Shown piece by piece: positions 1,540-10,469 of a stretch of 33,330 nucleotides of DNA; positions within the stretch are counted from its first letter, which is position 1; each line of letters begins with the position of its first letter. The notes beneath the pieces are model-generated. The model ran no database searches and had not been told where the DNA came from. It saw only the letters and a program-made list of their open reading frames with translations. This DNA is from Chloroflexota bacterium. Lineage in GTDB: Bacteria; Chloroflexota; Dehalococcoidia; DSTF01; RBG-16-68-14. The stretch is from the NCBI GenBank assembly GCA_022562155.1, contig JADFPV010000029.1, positions 1 to 33,330 of the forward strand, in the 5' to 3' direction. The position numbers and the translations under genes were made by a program.

Positions 1540-1617
1540 ACTCTAGTTCTAGAAGCAGCACTGCTCGTGATCAGTGTCACCACGATCCGACTAGCGGTTC
1601 GCTACGCTGATCTCAAC

Positions 1618-3072
1618 ATGCGATTCAGCAAGAGGTACGCTGCAACGGCCCTGATCGCCTTCGCCGTCATCGCCGTGGCCTGCGGCAGCACAGGCGGCTC
1701 GGAATCCGCCACCGGCACGCCGAGTGACGATGACGTGCGGGATGAGCCCACGGCCCCGCCCGATCCTGGCGTCCTCAACTCCGGCGGGTCGGAGTCCGCC
1801 ACCGGCACGCCGAGTGACGGTGACGCACGGGACGAGCCCACGGCCCCGCCCGATCCAGTCGTCCTCAACTCCGACTCGTCGGAGTCCGCTTCCGGCACGC
1901 CGAGCGACGATGGCGTCCAGGACGAGCCCACGGCCCCGCCCGATCCAGGCGTCCTCAACCCCGATGAGTCGGAGTCCGCCACCAGCACGCCGAGCGACGA
2001 TCACGCACAGGACGAGCATTCCGACCGCCTCGATCCACGCGTCCTTAACTCCGATTGGAGCACGGACTTCTCGATTCACTCCGTCCCGCTTGGCGACTTC
2101 CTCTCTGGAGGCCCTCCTAAGGATGGCATTCGCTCGCTGGAGAACCCGGCCTTCATCAGCATCGAAGAGGGCAACCAGTCGTTCGTGGACAACGAGCCCG
2201 TCATCGCCTTCTCGATCAACGGCGATGCCCGTGCCTACCCGCTCGGCATCCTCACCCAACACGAGATCGCCGACGACGTTGTCGGAGGCGTGCCTGTGAC
2301 CGTCACATTCTGCCCGCTCTGCAACTCTGCCATCGTCTTCGAGAGCACGCTCGATGGCGTCGTCTACGAGTTTGGCGTCTCCGGCGTGCTGCGCAACAGC
2401 GACCTCGTCATGTACGACCGCACGACCGAGTCCTGGTGGCAGCAGTTCACCGGCGAAGCCATCGTCGGCGAACTAACAGGAGCCCTCCTAGAGGTCGTGC
2501 CGTCCTCTCTCGTCTCATGGGGCGACTTCAAAGACACGTACCCCGCCGGCCAGGTCATGTCGACGGAGACGGGCTTCGGCAGGGACTACGGCCTCAACCC
2601 CTACGTCGGCTACGATAGCGACACCTCGCCCTTCCTCTTCCGCGGCGAGCCGGACCCCCGGCTCGGCCCCGTCGACCGGGTTGTAGCGCTCGACATCAAT
2701 GGAGACCCGATCGCCTACACCTACGACTCTTTGGAGGACGAAGGCGTCATTCACGACACGGTCGGTGGCGAGGATATCGTCATCTTCTTCCAGTTCGGCA
2801 CCGCATCCGCACTCGATGGCCGGAATATCTCCGAATCACGCGATGTCGGTGCGACGGGAGTCTTCCGGCCCGTCGCTAATGGACAGTCCCTCACCTTCAG
2901 CGCCGACGGCGACGACATTGTCGACGACCAAACCGGCAGTCGTTGGAACCTCCTCGGCCTCGCCACGGACGGCGAACTCGCCGGCACGCAGCTCGAACTC
3001 GTTCCCCACGCGAACCACTTCTGGTTCGCCTGGGCCGCGTTCAAGCCCAACACTCGCATCTACGGTACGTAG
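1618..3072 (+). CDS. DUF3179-like lipoprotein with N-terminal 30-aa tandem repeats
   Basis: Start ATG 1618 gives MRFSKRYAATALIAFAVIAVACGS (lipobox-like signal); C-terminal part has AYPLGILTQHEIADDVVGGVPVTVTFCPLCNSAIVF typical of DUF3179. Confidence 0.85.
   Translation: MRFSKRYAATALIAFAVIAVACGSTGGSESATGTPSDDDVRDEPTAPPDPGVLNSGGSESATGTPSDGDARDEPTAPPDPVVLNSDSSESASGTPSDDGVQDEPTAPPDPGVLNPDESESATSTPSDDHAQDEHSDRLDPRVLNSDWSTDFSIHSVPLGDFLSGGPPKDGIRSLENPAFISIEEGNQSFVDNEPVIAFSINGDARAYPLGILTQHEIADDVVGGVPVTVTFCPLCNSAIVFESTLDGVVYEFGVSGVLRNSDLVMYDRTTESWWQQFTGEAIVGELTGALLEVVPSSLVSWGDFKDTYPAGQVMSTETGFGRDYGLNPYVGYDSDTSPFLFRGEPDPRLGPVDRVVALDINGDPIAYTYDSLEDEGVIHDTVGGEDIVIFFQFGTASALDGRNISESRDVGATGVFRPVANGQSLTFSADGDDIVDDQTGSRWNLLGLATDGELAGTQLELVPHANHFWFAWAAFKPNTRIYGT
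1699..2058 (+). repeat. four tandem 90-bp in-frame repeats (30-aa unit SESATGTPSDDDVRDEPTAPPDPGVLNSGG)
   Basis: Unit starts (TCGGARTCCGC) at 1699, 1789, 1879 and 1969, exactly 90 bp apart; fourth unit is the most diverged. Confidence 0.95.
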
Positions 3073-6603: not shown

Positions 6604-7689
6604 ATGTGCGCCCTGGAAGACCTCCGTGTAGTCGAACTCAGCGAGACCGCGGCCGCCGCGTTCGCCGGCCGGCTTTGTGCTGACGCCGGCGCGGAGGTCG
6701 TGCTGGTCGAGCCTCCAGAAGGCCATCCGCTGCGGCGTGAAGGGCCGTTCTGCGGCCCCGCCAGTCAAAATGTCTCCGCCGTCCATCTCCACGTCAACGC
6801 AGGCAAGCGCTCCGTCACGCTCGACAGCGAGACCCAGGCGGATGAACTACGCGCGCTCGTTGATTCTGCCGACGTGTTTCTTACGGACTGGGCTACGTCT
6901 GCGCTCGAGCCGTTGGCTCTCGATACCGGCGCGTTGCAGAAACGCGCTCCGAGGCTCGTGATCACACAGGTCACGCCGTTCGGCGATACTGGGCCGTATC
7001 GAACTTACGCCGGCACGAACATTGTTGAGCTTGCGTTGGGCGGGCAACTCAAGATCACCGGCGATCCCGATAAGCCGCCGCTCTCCAACTACGGCTCCCA
7101 GGCCGAGTACCAGGCCGGGCTCTCCGCGTTCGCCGGCACCGTCGCCAACGTGTTGCTTCGCGATGCGAGCGGAGAGGGAGAGTACCTCGACCTCTCGATC
7201 CAAGACGTCGTCGCGACGCACTCTGAGCACCGGGGGCCTGCGCTGAACCTCGGTGCCGTCGCCAATCGGGCCGGTCTCAGCGTCAGCGCGACGTACGGCG
7301 TCTACCCATGCGCGGACGGCTTCGTGTACCTCACCGCGTTCGCGCCGCCGCTCTGGGAGCGGCTGAAGGCCGTCGTCGGCCTCGATGAGCTGGAAGACGA
7401 GCGCTTCGCGACGCAGGCCGCGCGGCTCGAACACAACGACGAATTGCAGGCCGTCCTCACCGGCTGGACGCTCGGCAAGACCAGCGATGAGCTGCGTACG
7501 TTCGCCCGTCGCGGCGATCCCATGACGGTCATGGAGACGCCCGAACGCCTCCTCGCTTCAGAGCAGTGGCGCAATCGCGGCGTTGCTCATGAAGTAGATC
7601 GTGTCACCGTGCTCGGCCCACCCTGGCCGCATGAGGAGCCACCAAGGCATGCACCTGCGCTGGGCGATGCGAACGAGGCGCAGCTCTAG
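6604..7689 (+). CDS. CaiB/BaiF (type III) CoA-transferase family protein
   Basis: 361 aa; LEDLRVVELSETAAAAFAGRLCADAGAEVVLVEPPEGHPLR. Confidence 0.9.
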   Translation: MCALEDLRVVELSETAAAAFAGRLCADAGAEVVLVEPPEGHPLRREGPFCGPASQNVSAVHLHVNAGKRSVTLDSETQADELRALVDSADVFLTDWATSALEPLALDTGALQKRAPRLVITQVTPFGDTGPYRTYAGTNIVELALGGQLKITGDPDKPPLSNYGSQAEYQAGLSAFAGTVANVLLRDASGEGEYLDLSIQDVVATHSEHRGPALNLGAVANRAGLSVSATYGVYPCADGFVYLTAFAPPLWERLKAVVGLDELEDERFATQAARLEHNDELQAVLTGWTLGKTSDELRTFARRGDPMTVMETPERLLASEQWRNRGVAHEVDRVTVLGPPWPHEEPPRHAPALGDANEAQL

Positions 7690-8972
7690 TGGATTGGAAG
7701 ACCGGCAGGTTGCCCTTGACGGGCATGCGGGTTGTCGATTGGACGGTCTACTGGGCCGGCCCCTTCCTCGGCATGATGCTGCACGACCTCGGCGCCGAGG
7801 TCATCAAGGTCGAGTCGCCGTCGAACTGGGACTCGATGCGTACCGTCATCGACGTCAACCGCTACGCCGGGGACAAGAAGCGCCCGATGACGGCCCAGGA
7901 GCGCGCAAACGTCAACCAACACTACAACGAATGGAACCGGGGCAAGCTCAGCCTCGGAGTCGAGCTGAGAGAAGAGCGCGGACGTCAGATCGTGCTCGAC
8001 CTGGCGGCCAAATCGGACATCTTCATCGAAAACCACAGGCCGGGCGCCAAGCATAAACTGGGCGTAGCGTACGAAGACGTGAAGGCAGTGCGGCCAGACG
8101 TCATCTACCTATCGCTCTCCGGCTACGGCCAGACCTTGCCCGAGCGCGACGCCATGGCCCTCGGCGCGCCCGTGGAGCTGGCCAGCGGCCTCTTCTCCCT
8201 CAATGGCTACCTGAATGACGACACGCCCGCGAAGACCGGCTTCAGCTACGGCGACCCCGTCGGTGCGCTGGCCGCCCTCTCGGCGCTCCTGCTGGCTGTC
8301 CGCCACCGGCGGAAGACCGGCGAGGGTCAGTACATCGATGTCGCCATGCGCGACGCCCTTTCGTTCGGCATCGGCGCGGCGTTCACGGACTGGTCCGCGA
8401 ATCACACAGAGCGCCCCCGTCGCGGCAATCGACATCCGGTCTACGCGCCACAGGGTGTCTATCGCGCGCAGGGCGAAGACGCCTGGGTCGCCATCAGCGT
8501 CCGCGACGATGCCGACTGGGCAGCGCTTGGCCTCGCGCTCGGCTCACCGGACTGGCACGGCGACGCGCACTACGCAGACGCACAGGGCCGCCGCGATCGC
8601 CACGACGAGATCGACGGCCACATCGAGGCCTGGACCTCGCAGCGCTCCGCCCGCGAATGTGAGACGCTGCTGCAGAACCACGGCGTGCCCGCGGGCGCCG
8701 TGCTCGATCTGCAGCAGGTCGGCGAGGACCCGCAGCTCGCGGCCCGTGGCGCGTTCCAGGAGATTGAGCATCCGGCCTTTGGCACAGAGGTGCGCGCCTC
8801 GTCGCAATGGGGCAGGGGAGACGAGCCGCAGCCTATCGACATGCCCGCGCCGTGCTTCGGCCAGCACAACCACGACGTCCTCTCGCGCATCCTCGGCATG
8901 GATGGCGCGGCGATAGCAGAGCTTGAGCGCGACTGCGTCATCTCCGATGAGATCAGCGCGACCGACGACTAA
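7689..8972 (+). CDS. CaiB/BaiF (type III) CoA-transferase
   Basis: 427 aa; GTG start overlaps previous TAG by 1 nt; MRVVDWTVYWAGPFLGMMLHDLGAEVIKVESP. Confidence 0.93.
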   Translation: MDWKTGRLPLTGMRVVDWTVYWAGPFLGMMLHDLGAEVIKVESPSNWDSMRTVIDVNRYAGDKKRPMTAQERANVNQHYNEWNRGKLSLGVELREERGRQIVLDLAAKSDIFIENHRPGAKHKLGVAYEDVKAVRPDVIYLSLSGYGQTLPERDAMALGAPVELASGLFSLNGYLNDDTPAKTGFSYGDPVGALAALSALLLAVRHRRKTGEGQYIDVAMRDALSFGIGAAFTDWSANHTERPRRGNRHPVYAPQGVYRAQGEDAWVAISVRDDADWAALGLALGSPDWHGDAHYADAQGRRDRHDEIDGHIEAWTSQRSARECETLLQNHGVPAGAVLDLQQVGEDPQLAARGAFQEIEHPAFGTEVRASSQWGRGDEPQPIDMPAPCFGQHNHDVLSRILGMDGAAIAELERDCVISDEISATDD

Positions 8973-9016
8973 GCAGGCTCGCCGAGTGGAAGAGAGGAAG
9001 CAACGTCTGAGGTGGA

Positions 9017-9040
9017 GGGCTAGACTCCTCGCTTCGCAGG
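9017..9040 (-). repeat. degenerate palindromic repeat arm (R-type)
   Basis: gggctagactcctcgcttcgcagg, about 22/26 nt match to gggctagacccctcgctgcgctcggg at 9422-9447. Confidence 0.6.
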
Positions 9041-9074
9041 GCGGCTTGGTTGTTGTTCCAGGTACGTTACGGTG

Positions 9075-9110
9075 CCCGTCATTCCGAGCGCAGCGAGGAA
9101 TCTGATCCTC
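9075..9110 (+). repeat. palindromic dispersed repeat (L-type), gtcattCCGAGCGCAGCGAGGaatctgatcctc
   Basis: Core CCGAGCGCAGCGAGG (9084-9098) is the exact reverse complement of 9432-9446; in-frame translation is HSERSEESDP. Confidence 0.85.
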
Positions 9111-9115
9111 GGCTG

Positions 9116-9451
9116 ATGCCTGACTACTACGTCTACATCATGACCAACAACTCAGGAACGCTCTACACGGGCGTGACGAACGATCTTGAGCGAAGGGTCG
9201 CGGAGCATCGATCGAAACAAGGAGCGGCGTTCACGACGAAGTACCAGATCAACCGTCTTATGTACTACGAGGCTGTATCCAGCATCAACGACGCGATAGC
9301 AAGGGAGAAGCAGATCAAGAGTTGGCGACGGAGAAAGAAGATTGACCTCATCGCATCCTTCAATCCACGTTGGAAGGACCTCGCAGCCGATTGGTACGAG
9401 GATTCGAGTGTCCTACCCGAGGGGCTAGACCCCTCGCTGCGCTCGGGGTGA
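9116..9451 (+). CDS. GIY-YIG nuclease family protein (small, UPF0213/YhbQ-like)
   Basis: MPDYYVYIMTNNSGTLYTGVTNDLERRVAEHRSKQGAAFTTKY; stop codon lies in the downstream repeat. Confidence 0.9.
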   Translation: MPDYYVYIMTNNSGTLYTGVTNDLERRVAEHRSKQGAAFTTKYQINRLMYYEAVSSINDAIAREKQIKSWRRRKKIDLIASFNPRWKDLAADWYEDSSVLPEGLDPSLRSG

Positions 9452-9456
9452 CAGCG
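9419..9456 (-). repeat. palindromic dispersed repeat (R-type) overlapping 3' end of the GIY-YIG gene
   Basis: GAGGGGctagaCCCCTC hairpin (9419-9435) followed by CCTCGCTGCGCTCGG (9432-9446) and ggtgacag. Confidence 0.8.
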
Positions 9457-9491
9457 GTCGGCCGGTCACTGCGTGGGCGGCAAGACATACC

Positions 9492-9553
9492 CCTGTCATT
9501 CCGAGCCCTTCGACCTCGCTCAGGATAAACTCCGCGAGGAATCTGATCCTCCG
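9492..9553 (+). repeat. L-type repeat interrupted by 27 nt
   Basis: cctgtcattccgagc-[ccttcgacctcgctcaggataaactcc]-gcgaggaatctgatcctc; outer parts match 9075-9110. Confidence 0.8.
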
Positions 9554-9565
9554 GTGACCCTCCTG

Positions 9566-9593
9566 TTGACGGTTGCCACATCCCACCTATAAT
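9566..9593 (+). promoter_or_regulatory. promoter TTGACG-N16-TATAAT for the molybdenum hydroxylase operon
   Basis: TTGACG 9566-9571, perfect TATAAT 9588-9593, ATG at 9603. Confidence 0.7.
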
Positions 9594-9602
9594 TGAGCGA
9601 TC

Positions 9603-10469
9603 ATGAAGCCCGCGCCGTTTGAGTACTACGCGCCCACGAGCGTCGCCGAGACGGTGGCGTTGCTTGAGCAACACGGGCCCGAAGCCAAGCTCCTGGCGGG
9701 CGGCCAGAGCCTCGTCCCGCTCCTCAACATGCGCCTCGCGCGGCCGACGGTCGTTGTCGACGTGGGGCGTGTGGCCGGCCTCGACTACGTCCGCGAGGAG
9801 GACGGCGCGCTCGCCATCGGCGCGATGACGAGCCAGCGGACGATCGAACGCTCCGAACTGGTCGAGCAGCGGCTGCCTCTGCTTCGCGCCGCCACGCGCC
9901 TCGTTGGCCATCCGCAGATACGCAATCGAGGCACGGTCGGCGGTTCGATCGCCCACGCCGACCCCGCTGCTGAGTATCCGGCCGTCGCGCTCGCGCTCGA
10001 CGCGCAGATGCGCGTCGCAGGGCCTGGCGGCGAGCGTGTCATTGAGGCCGCCGACTTCTTCGTCACCTACCTGACCACCGCCCTCGAGCCGTCGGACGTG
10101 CTCACTGAGGTACGGATGCCGTTGCTGCCCGGAGGGGCGGGCTGGTCCATCGTCGAGATCGCCCGGCGCCACGGCGACTTCGCGCTCGCCGGCGCGGTCG
10201 TCACGCTGTCCGTTGATAGCGGGTCAATCAAGGACCCGCGCGTCGTTCTCTTCGGGGTCGGCGCGACGCCGATCCGTGTGAGAGAGGCCGAGGAGCGCCT
10301 TGCAGGCGAGTCGCCAAGCGAGGCGCTGTTCACGGAAGCCGGTAAGCTCGTCAGCGAAGTGATCGATGAGCCGCTCTCCGATATTCACGCGACCGCCGAG
10401 TTCCGCCGCCATCTGGCCGGCGTCATGGCACAACGAGGACTGGCCGAAGCAGCCGGGCGCGTCGCTTAA
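9603..10469 (+). CDS. xanthine dehydrogenase/CO dehydrogenase family FAD-binding (medium) subunit
   Basis: LLAGGQSLVPLLNMRLARPTVVVDVGRV and RNRGTVGGSIAHADPAAEYPAV motifs. Confidence 0.95.
   Translation: MKPAPFEYYAPTSVAETVALLEQHGPEAKLLAGGQSLVPLLNMRLARPTVVVDVGRVAGLDYVREEDGALAIGAMTSQRTIERSELVEQRLPLLRAATRLVGHPQIRNRGTVGGSIAHADPAAEYPAVALALDAQMRVAGPGGERVIEAADFFVTYLTTALEPSDVLTEVRMPLLPGGAGWSIVEIARRHGDFALAGAVVTLSVDSGSIKDPRVVLFGVGATPIRVREAEERLAGESPSEALFTEAGKLVSEVIDEPLSDIHATAEFRRHLAGVMAQRGLAEAAGRVA

Follow-up and report, generated by a model that had tools for sequence, protein, structure and literature searches.

A small gene for a GIY-YIG nuclease, enclosed by inverted copies of a repeat in the genome of a Chloroflexota bacterium, raises the question of whether gene and repeats together form a mobile element, and by which enzyme repeats of this kind are moved. 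REP sequences and REPINs are palindromic doublets mobilised by RAYT transposases of the Y1 HUH kind, GIY-YIG nucleases occur in homing elements, and few bacterial repeats are as widespread as the CGTC-tagged REPs. The latter "lack a dedicated transposase" (Di Nocera et al. 2013, PMC3733652), and the lack of an enzyme for their mobility has been explicitly recognised as an unsolved question since 2013 (PMC3733652). Here, we propose that the locus is probably a minimal mobile element made up of two inverted CGTC REP arms and a GIY-YIG nuclease specific to the REP type, with cutting, host repair and mobilisation in trans being inferred. That arms and gene move together, with a nuclease specific to the repeat type, is held with greater confidence than the proposal as a whole; that the nuclease cuts at the tags could be put about evenly either way, no cleavage or transposition having been observed.

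The nuclease gene and its repeat arms

The window, that is, the whole stretch of 33,330 nucleotides analysed here, carries the features collected in Table 1.

Table 1. Repeat arms, tags and genes at the nuclease locus of the window
Feature	Positions	Strand	Remarks
Intergenic stretch	8973-9602		630 bp, between the genes for a CoA-transferase (7689-8972) and an FAD-binding subunit (9603-10469)
Degenerate R-type arm	9017-9037	-	left of the unit; 19 of 21 positions match the R arm
L arm	9077-9103	+	CGTC-tagged REP, CGTCATTCCGAGCGCAGCGAGGAATCT; left end of the moving unit
CGTC tag	9077-9080		
15-mer CCGAGCGCAGCGAGG, L copy	9084-9098	+	
GIY-YIG nuclease gene	9116-9451	+	111 aa/codons
Second hairpin	9419-9435	+	GAGGGGctagaCCCCTC; inner edge of the R arm; conserved in the same-genus copy L016
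R arm	9426-9453	-	inverted REP, AGACCCCTCGCTGCGCTCGGGGTGACA; right end of the moving unit
15-mer CCGAGCGCAGCGAGG, R copy	9432-9446	-	
TGTC tag, complement	9450-9453		
Second, longer L-type arm	9494-9544	+	TGTCATTCCGAG...GAGGAATCT, larger loop
TGTC tag	9494-9497		

Several claims of an earlier note on this DNA concern the anatomy of the locus. The L core is, as it held, the exact reverse complement of the R core along a 15-mer, of which there is no other exact copy in the 2.77-Mb genome. The repeat also supplies the last codons and the stop of the nuclease, whose reading frame ends with EGLDPSLRSG* inside the R arm (in the GTGAC of the tag), the arm itself ending with GGGGTGACA, and the hairpin described in the right-hand R is likewise real. 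All four flanking arms are present where they had been placed; the order of an R arm followed by an L arm on each side does not stand, as the unit is an inverted pair, L-gene-R, outside of which lie two outer half-units, a degenerate R on the left and a longer L on the right. The former is probably the remnant of an earlier copy. The latter (1192-1253 of the element query) gave many BLAST matches in five genomes (G000, which is the window's own, G001, G002, G027 and G044) and is thus a dispersed repeat. The L and R cores of the window differ (ATTCC vs ACCCC), a mismatch that is frequent across loci. Elsewhere in the window, 90-bp tandem repeats occupy positions 1609-2054 inside an open reading frame (1567-3072).

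The product of the gene matches the GIY-YIG domain profile (PF01541, E=4.6e-16), and in an alignment of 28 relatives the residues Y7, YTG (17-19), R27, H31, E64 and N83 are invariant or nearly so and of catalytic type, the active-site set of the superfamily (the GIY and YIG tyrosines, Arg, Glu and Asn) being present. Comparison with the L016 copy gave a dN of 0.16 against a saturated dS of 3.7, by which measure the window nuclease is under purifying selection. The nearest folds to a structure model (pLDDT 83) are UPF0213, Slx1 and the GIY-YIG domain of UvrC; Slx1 is a branched-DNA nuclease and the UvrC domain a repair nuclease. Phage relatives are distant.

The repeats are CGTC/TGTC-tagged REPs of the CGTC super-family in the broad sense. 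The terminal tag CGTC (or TGTC/CCTC) is present in the arms of the window and of relatives. The stem bases vary together with their matching partners (ATTCC, ATTCT, ATCCT, ATGCT, ATTGC, ATCCC, ACCCT and others), the constant tag reading GTCA. Compensatory change has maintained the palindromic stem: in a set of 59 different arms, selected solely for their tag and loop, 44 had at least four of the five stem pairs, with many pair types represented. The arms share with the published CGTC REPs (PMC3733652) the CGTC/TGTC tag, a stem starting with AT, dispersed intergenic copies and pairing in opposite orientation, and the criterion of inverted head-to-head pairs in intergenic DNA is met. The classic REP form, with a stem of 8-9 bp, a loop of 4-5 nt and a CCA tail, is not met by the window arms, in which an outer stem of 5 bp is combined with a longer loop (GAGCGNAGCGA) and a CTGAT tail; given the shorter outer stem, the longer loop and the lack of a CCA tail they constitute a further core family. 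Arms in L087, L188, S. meliloti and A. lipoferum resemble the classic form. The folding energy of the single L arm was no better than that of its own shuffles, and folding energy was therefore left out as evidence. A strict pattern detected no gene-less doublet in the window's own genome, in which a degenerate inverted pair of this kind is nevertheless present (L012:1500-1619).

Recurrence in relatives and covariation with the repeat stem

Taken by itself, the window shows an inverted match across the gene that is only moderately unusual, its score of 16 being reached at 5 of 780 control positions; the force of the association comes from relatives. These were sought in one genome per species, which gave at least 570 protein relatives; the best 80 loci, from many phyla, were used and had been picked by protein alone, not by repeats. 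A motif-free inverted match of at least 12 spanned the gene at 60% of 78 loci and at 2.2% of the 2,517 positions that served as controls in the same DNA. Tags of the form GTCA[TC]nnY stood on both sides of 58 of 77 nuclease loci and of 7 of 158 control genes or ORFs, and the order L-gene-R was found at 32 of the former and at none of the 158 control ORFs. Where stem cores could be compared within a locus, L and R were identical in 24 of 45 cases (7.4 expected; at most 17 in 10,000 shuffles). An R arm that carries the stop codon is seen at several relative loci as in the window, a paralogue in the own genome (C87) has the same L-gene-R anatomy, and the combination of nuclease and inverted pair extends over about 18 named phyla (among 74 rows). 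About a quarter of the nuclease loci had no recognisable tag on one or both sides, and the controls disregard shared ancestry, the tree tests below excepted. These comparisons establish the anatomy as a recurrent one. Small GIY-YIG genes of the UPF0213 kind in the same genomes had CGTC arms of any sort in only 2 of 10 cases, so that flanking arms are a trait of this nuclease subfamily.

The CGTC REP family includes dRS3 of Neisseria and RPE-4/RPE-6 of Rickettsia, and S. meliloti, A. lipoferum and Neisseria are among its named hosts (PMC3733652); no nuclease genes were reported near the repeats (Di Nocera et al. 2013, PMC3733652). In S. meliloti, A. lipoferum, Sphingobium, Shinella and N. gonorrhoeae, GIY-YIG genes are bordered by REPs of the classic CGTC form. 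Records of S. meliloti, A. lipoferum, Neisseria, Rhizobium, Shinella, Sphingobium, Novosphingobium and Aeromonas contain a relative of the nuclease that has REPs such as CGTCATCCTCGGGCTTGACCCGAGGATCCA next to it or on either side. Of 12 such named records, 9 scored higher than all local controls. The gene of A. lipoferum is located between sufB and sufC.

Nuclease type and repeat stem type covary, as judged on a tree of 78 nuclease proteins from which the repeat-encoded tails had been removed and which comprised only 96 columns. The division into ATTGC-type and other stems required 2 changes on this tree against 14.7 with shuffled labels, and in Chloroflexota alone 1 change against 5.5. An EKxIK-[AG]GS motif was found at 13 of 15 ATTGC-type loci and at none of 55 others (p=2e-12, uncorrected for ancestry), and a W follows the EKxIK helix at 55 of the 56 non-ATTGC loci with a readable motif. 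Outside the ATTGC clade the last stem base (C or T) tracks the tree (10 changes vs 15.8), and finer stem types follow it weakly (29 changes vs 33.1). With some reserve, we favour the wider proposal of an element class spanning phyla, in which a stand-alone GIY-YIG nuclease would replicate its own CGTC-REP pair and, in trans, gene-less REPs, with repeat specificity in the motif after EKxIK (W vs [AG]GS) and with the classic alphaproteobacterial and neisserial REPs included.

Filled and empty sites

The same-genus copy L016 (genome G002, contig QIFC01000070) lies at a different locus from the window copy, and the homology between the two starts at CGTCATTCC and stops at GGGGTGACA, which is exactly at the two tags. 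BLAST matches of the element in other genomes start at window positions 9075-9077. At the window locus itself, the same-genus genomes G001 and G002 have kept both neighbour genes with only about 80-120 bp between them and harbour neither the nuclease gene nor repeats; conservation of the gene in place without repeats, which the earlier note would have taken as a refutation, is thus not what is seen. A filled site in G002 (C71) is empty in the window's genome (G000:C55; 3 bp vs 442), and the C87 site of the window's genome is empty in G002 (G002:C16; 8 bp vs 378), where the right junction lies directly behind GGTGAC. Since the empty alleles at all three sites are also without repeats, gene and arms came or went together, and on this comparative evidence arms and gene move as one unit. 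In two filled/empty pairs the left junction falls beyond the L tag, at a distance of 20-60 bp, and the two pairs that could be aligned show no target duplication. The criteria for a MITE or IS (terminal inverted repeats, target duplication and a transposase) are not met, and there is no transposase at the locus.

Another explanation is that a free-standing nuclease gene of the homing type invades pre-existing REP pairs as its target, the REPs themselves having spread otherwise. REPs are known as targets of insertion sequences (PMC1525189, PMC3733652) and some of the genes, for example that of A. lipoferum, lie between two complete doublets. However, the empty alleles at the three polymorphic sites are without any REPs that could have been invaded, and the moving unit includes the arms and ends at their tags, which makes this explanation unlikely. 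In the mobile element that we propose instead, the nuclease would recognise the palindromic arms, probably when they form hairpins on single-stranded or cruciform DNA close to a replication fork, and would cut at or near the GTCA tags; host break repair may then copy or re-insert the L-gene-R segment elsewhere, and L-R pairs that carry no gene would also be moved, in trans. Both the cleavage of the arms and the mobilisation of gene-less repeats are inferred. Re-insertion by host break repair would explain the absence of a visible target duplication.

Other arrangements of the gene were encountered as well. A relative from the same class (G025, loci L188-L207) has more than a dozen copies or fragments of the GIY-YIG gene, the majority in an element of ~650 bp with the terminal inverted repeats GGTTCCTTCTCAAACTGAGTGGGTAA / TTTACCCACTTGAAATGAAAAAGAGCC and no transposase, where CATTCCGACGAAAGTCGGAATCCAG arms around the nuclease gene are found inside the longer terminal inverted repeats. 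Two copies (L120 at G003:C65 and L125 at G005:C165) have the downstream SDR gene on one side and a short degenerate copy of a part of it on the other, as though some of the target had been duplicated on insertion; as a signature of target duplication these partial duplicates are too few. A nuclease gene with an internal stop (L025) and two adjacent copies, one of them with a stop (L217, G002:C4:25300-27600), are each located within a repeat array, and such decayed or doubled genes are expected of an element degenerating in place.

Candidate enzymes and known systems

In 60 genomes of the class the repeat was present in 18 of 24 with a strong nuclease match and in 13 of 36 without (Fisher p=0.004), so that the repeats are not distributed independently of GIY-YIG genes, the other outcome that would have told against the earlier note. 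Nine of the 36 genomes without a strong match had at least 5 repeats, some genomes being incomplete. No association was found in the same 60 genomes between the repeat and Y1_Tnp (p=0.32). The module had been described as one without a Y1 transposase, and correctly so, since there is none at the locus and the single weak Y1_Tnp gene of the own genome is without CGTC arms. The suggestion that the repeat family is maintained by a GIY-YIG nuclease is supported as regards the association and the REPIN-like behaviour; maintenance of gene-less repeats in trans is still an inference.

These data also bear on the possibility that Y1 transposases (RAYT/TnpA-REP) mobilise the repeats in trans and that the GIY-YIG gene is a passenger between two REPs. 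The logic by which RAYTs mobilise GTAG REPs is a related one, and besides the weak gene of the own genome, Y1 genes occur in 29 of the 60 relatives. Yet a perfect-stem REP was found beside 4 of 20 Y1 genes, never on both sides, as compared with 17 of 22 GIY loci, 10 of which had one on each side. Likewise, Y1 genes were found unflanked by CGTC REPs in the study of Di Nocera et al. (2013, PMC3733652). Y1 presence does not track the repeats, four near-complete genomes (G012, G044, G046 and G048) have repeats and nuclease and no Y1 match, and covariation with the repeat stem is not expected of a passenger; this possibility is accordingly regarded as quite unlikely. That the nuclease is a host-protecting enzyme which resolves or cuts REP hairpins and is kept adjacent by selection, with no role in mobility, fits the resemblance of its fold to the Slx1 and UvrC domains and is very improbable all the same, as housekeeping predicts a stable place and the gene is at different loci in congeners, absent in many and multicopy in some.

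Recurrence of the pairing over about 18 phyla makes the nuclease of the proposed mobile element the best candidate for the missing mover of a widespread bacterial repeat family. Like the REPIN/RAYT system (REPtron, GTAG REPs), the element combines a small single-domain DNA-processing enzyme flanked by REPs with inverted doublets and with coevolution of enzyme and repeat. The REPIN/RAYT criterion of a Y1 HUH transposase gene flanked by REPs is not met, the enzyme being a GIY-YIG nuclease, of a different fold, and not a Y1 HUH tyrosine transposase. The element thus works like a REPIN/RAYT replicon but with a GIY-YIG nuclease, and since no covalent bond between protein and DNA arises with such a nuclease, host functions must be responsible for re-insertion. 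With the GIY-YIG homing endonucleases (I-TevI type, free-standing Seg genes) it has in common the catalytic fold, the residues and a gene mobility driven by a nuclease; it differs from them in having no intron, no homologous target gene and no separate DNA-binding domain (111 aa), and in carrying palindromic arms of its own into unrelated intergenic sites. The homing criterion, a cognate site of a homologous gene or intron, is not met, the loci of congeners being different and the empty sites mutually unrelated.

No earlier description linking GIY-YIG genes and REPs was found in the open-access literature that was searched, preprints and most subscription papers being outside this scope. The association provides a concrete enzyme that can be tested, a predicted cleavage site in the GTCA tag of the hairpin and a candidate specificity residue. 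The wider proposal, if true, would supply the enzyme that one of the two REP super-families has lacked, and a way for repeats to disperse without a transposase. The association would also imply that replicons of the REP type have more than one origin, with enzymes unrelated to each other, and would assign a function to a large and mostly unassigned set of small "GIY-YIG nuclease family proteins".

The nearest relatives with known structure, in sequence as well as in fold, are the small GIY-YIG proteins of the UPF0213/YhbQ type (PDB 1zg2, 1ywl), which differ in being mostly without CGTC arms and often at tRNA genes. A second, UPF0213-like GIY-YIG group directly adjoins tRNA genes both in the own genome (L006, L007 and L008) and in relatives (L153, L155, L157 and L256-L259). 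At several of these ORFs a copy of the 3' part of the tRNA is found on the far side (about 60 nt for tRNA-Arg; matches of 38/40 and 31/31 for Asn, 21/21 and 18/18 for Ile). From these copies the group looks like another GIY-YIG mini-element, one that may duplicate its target.
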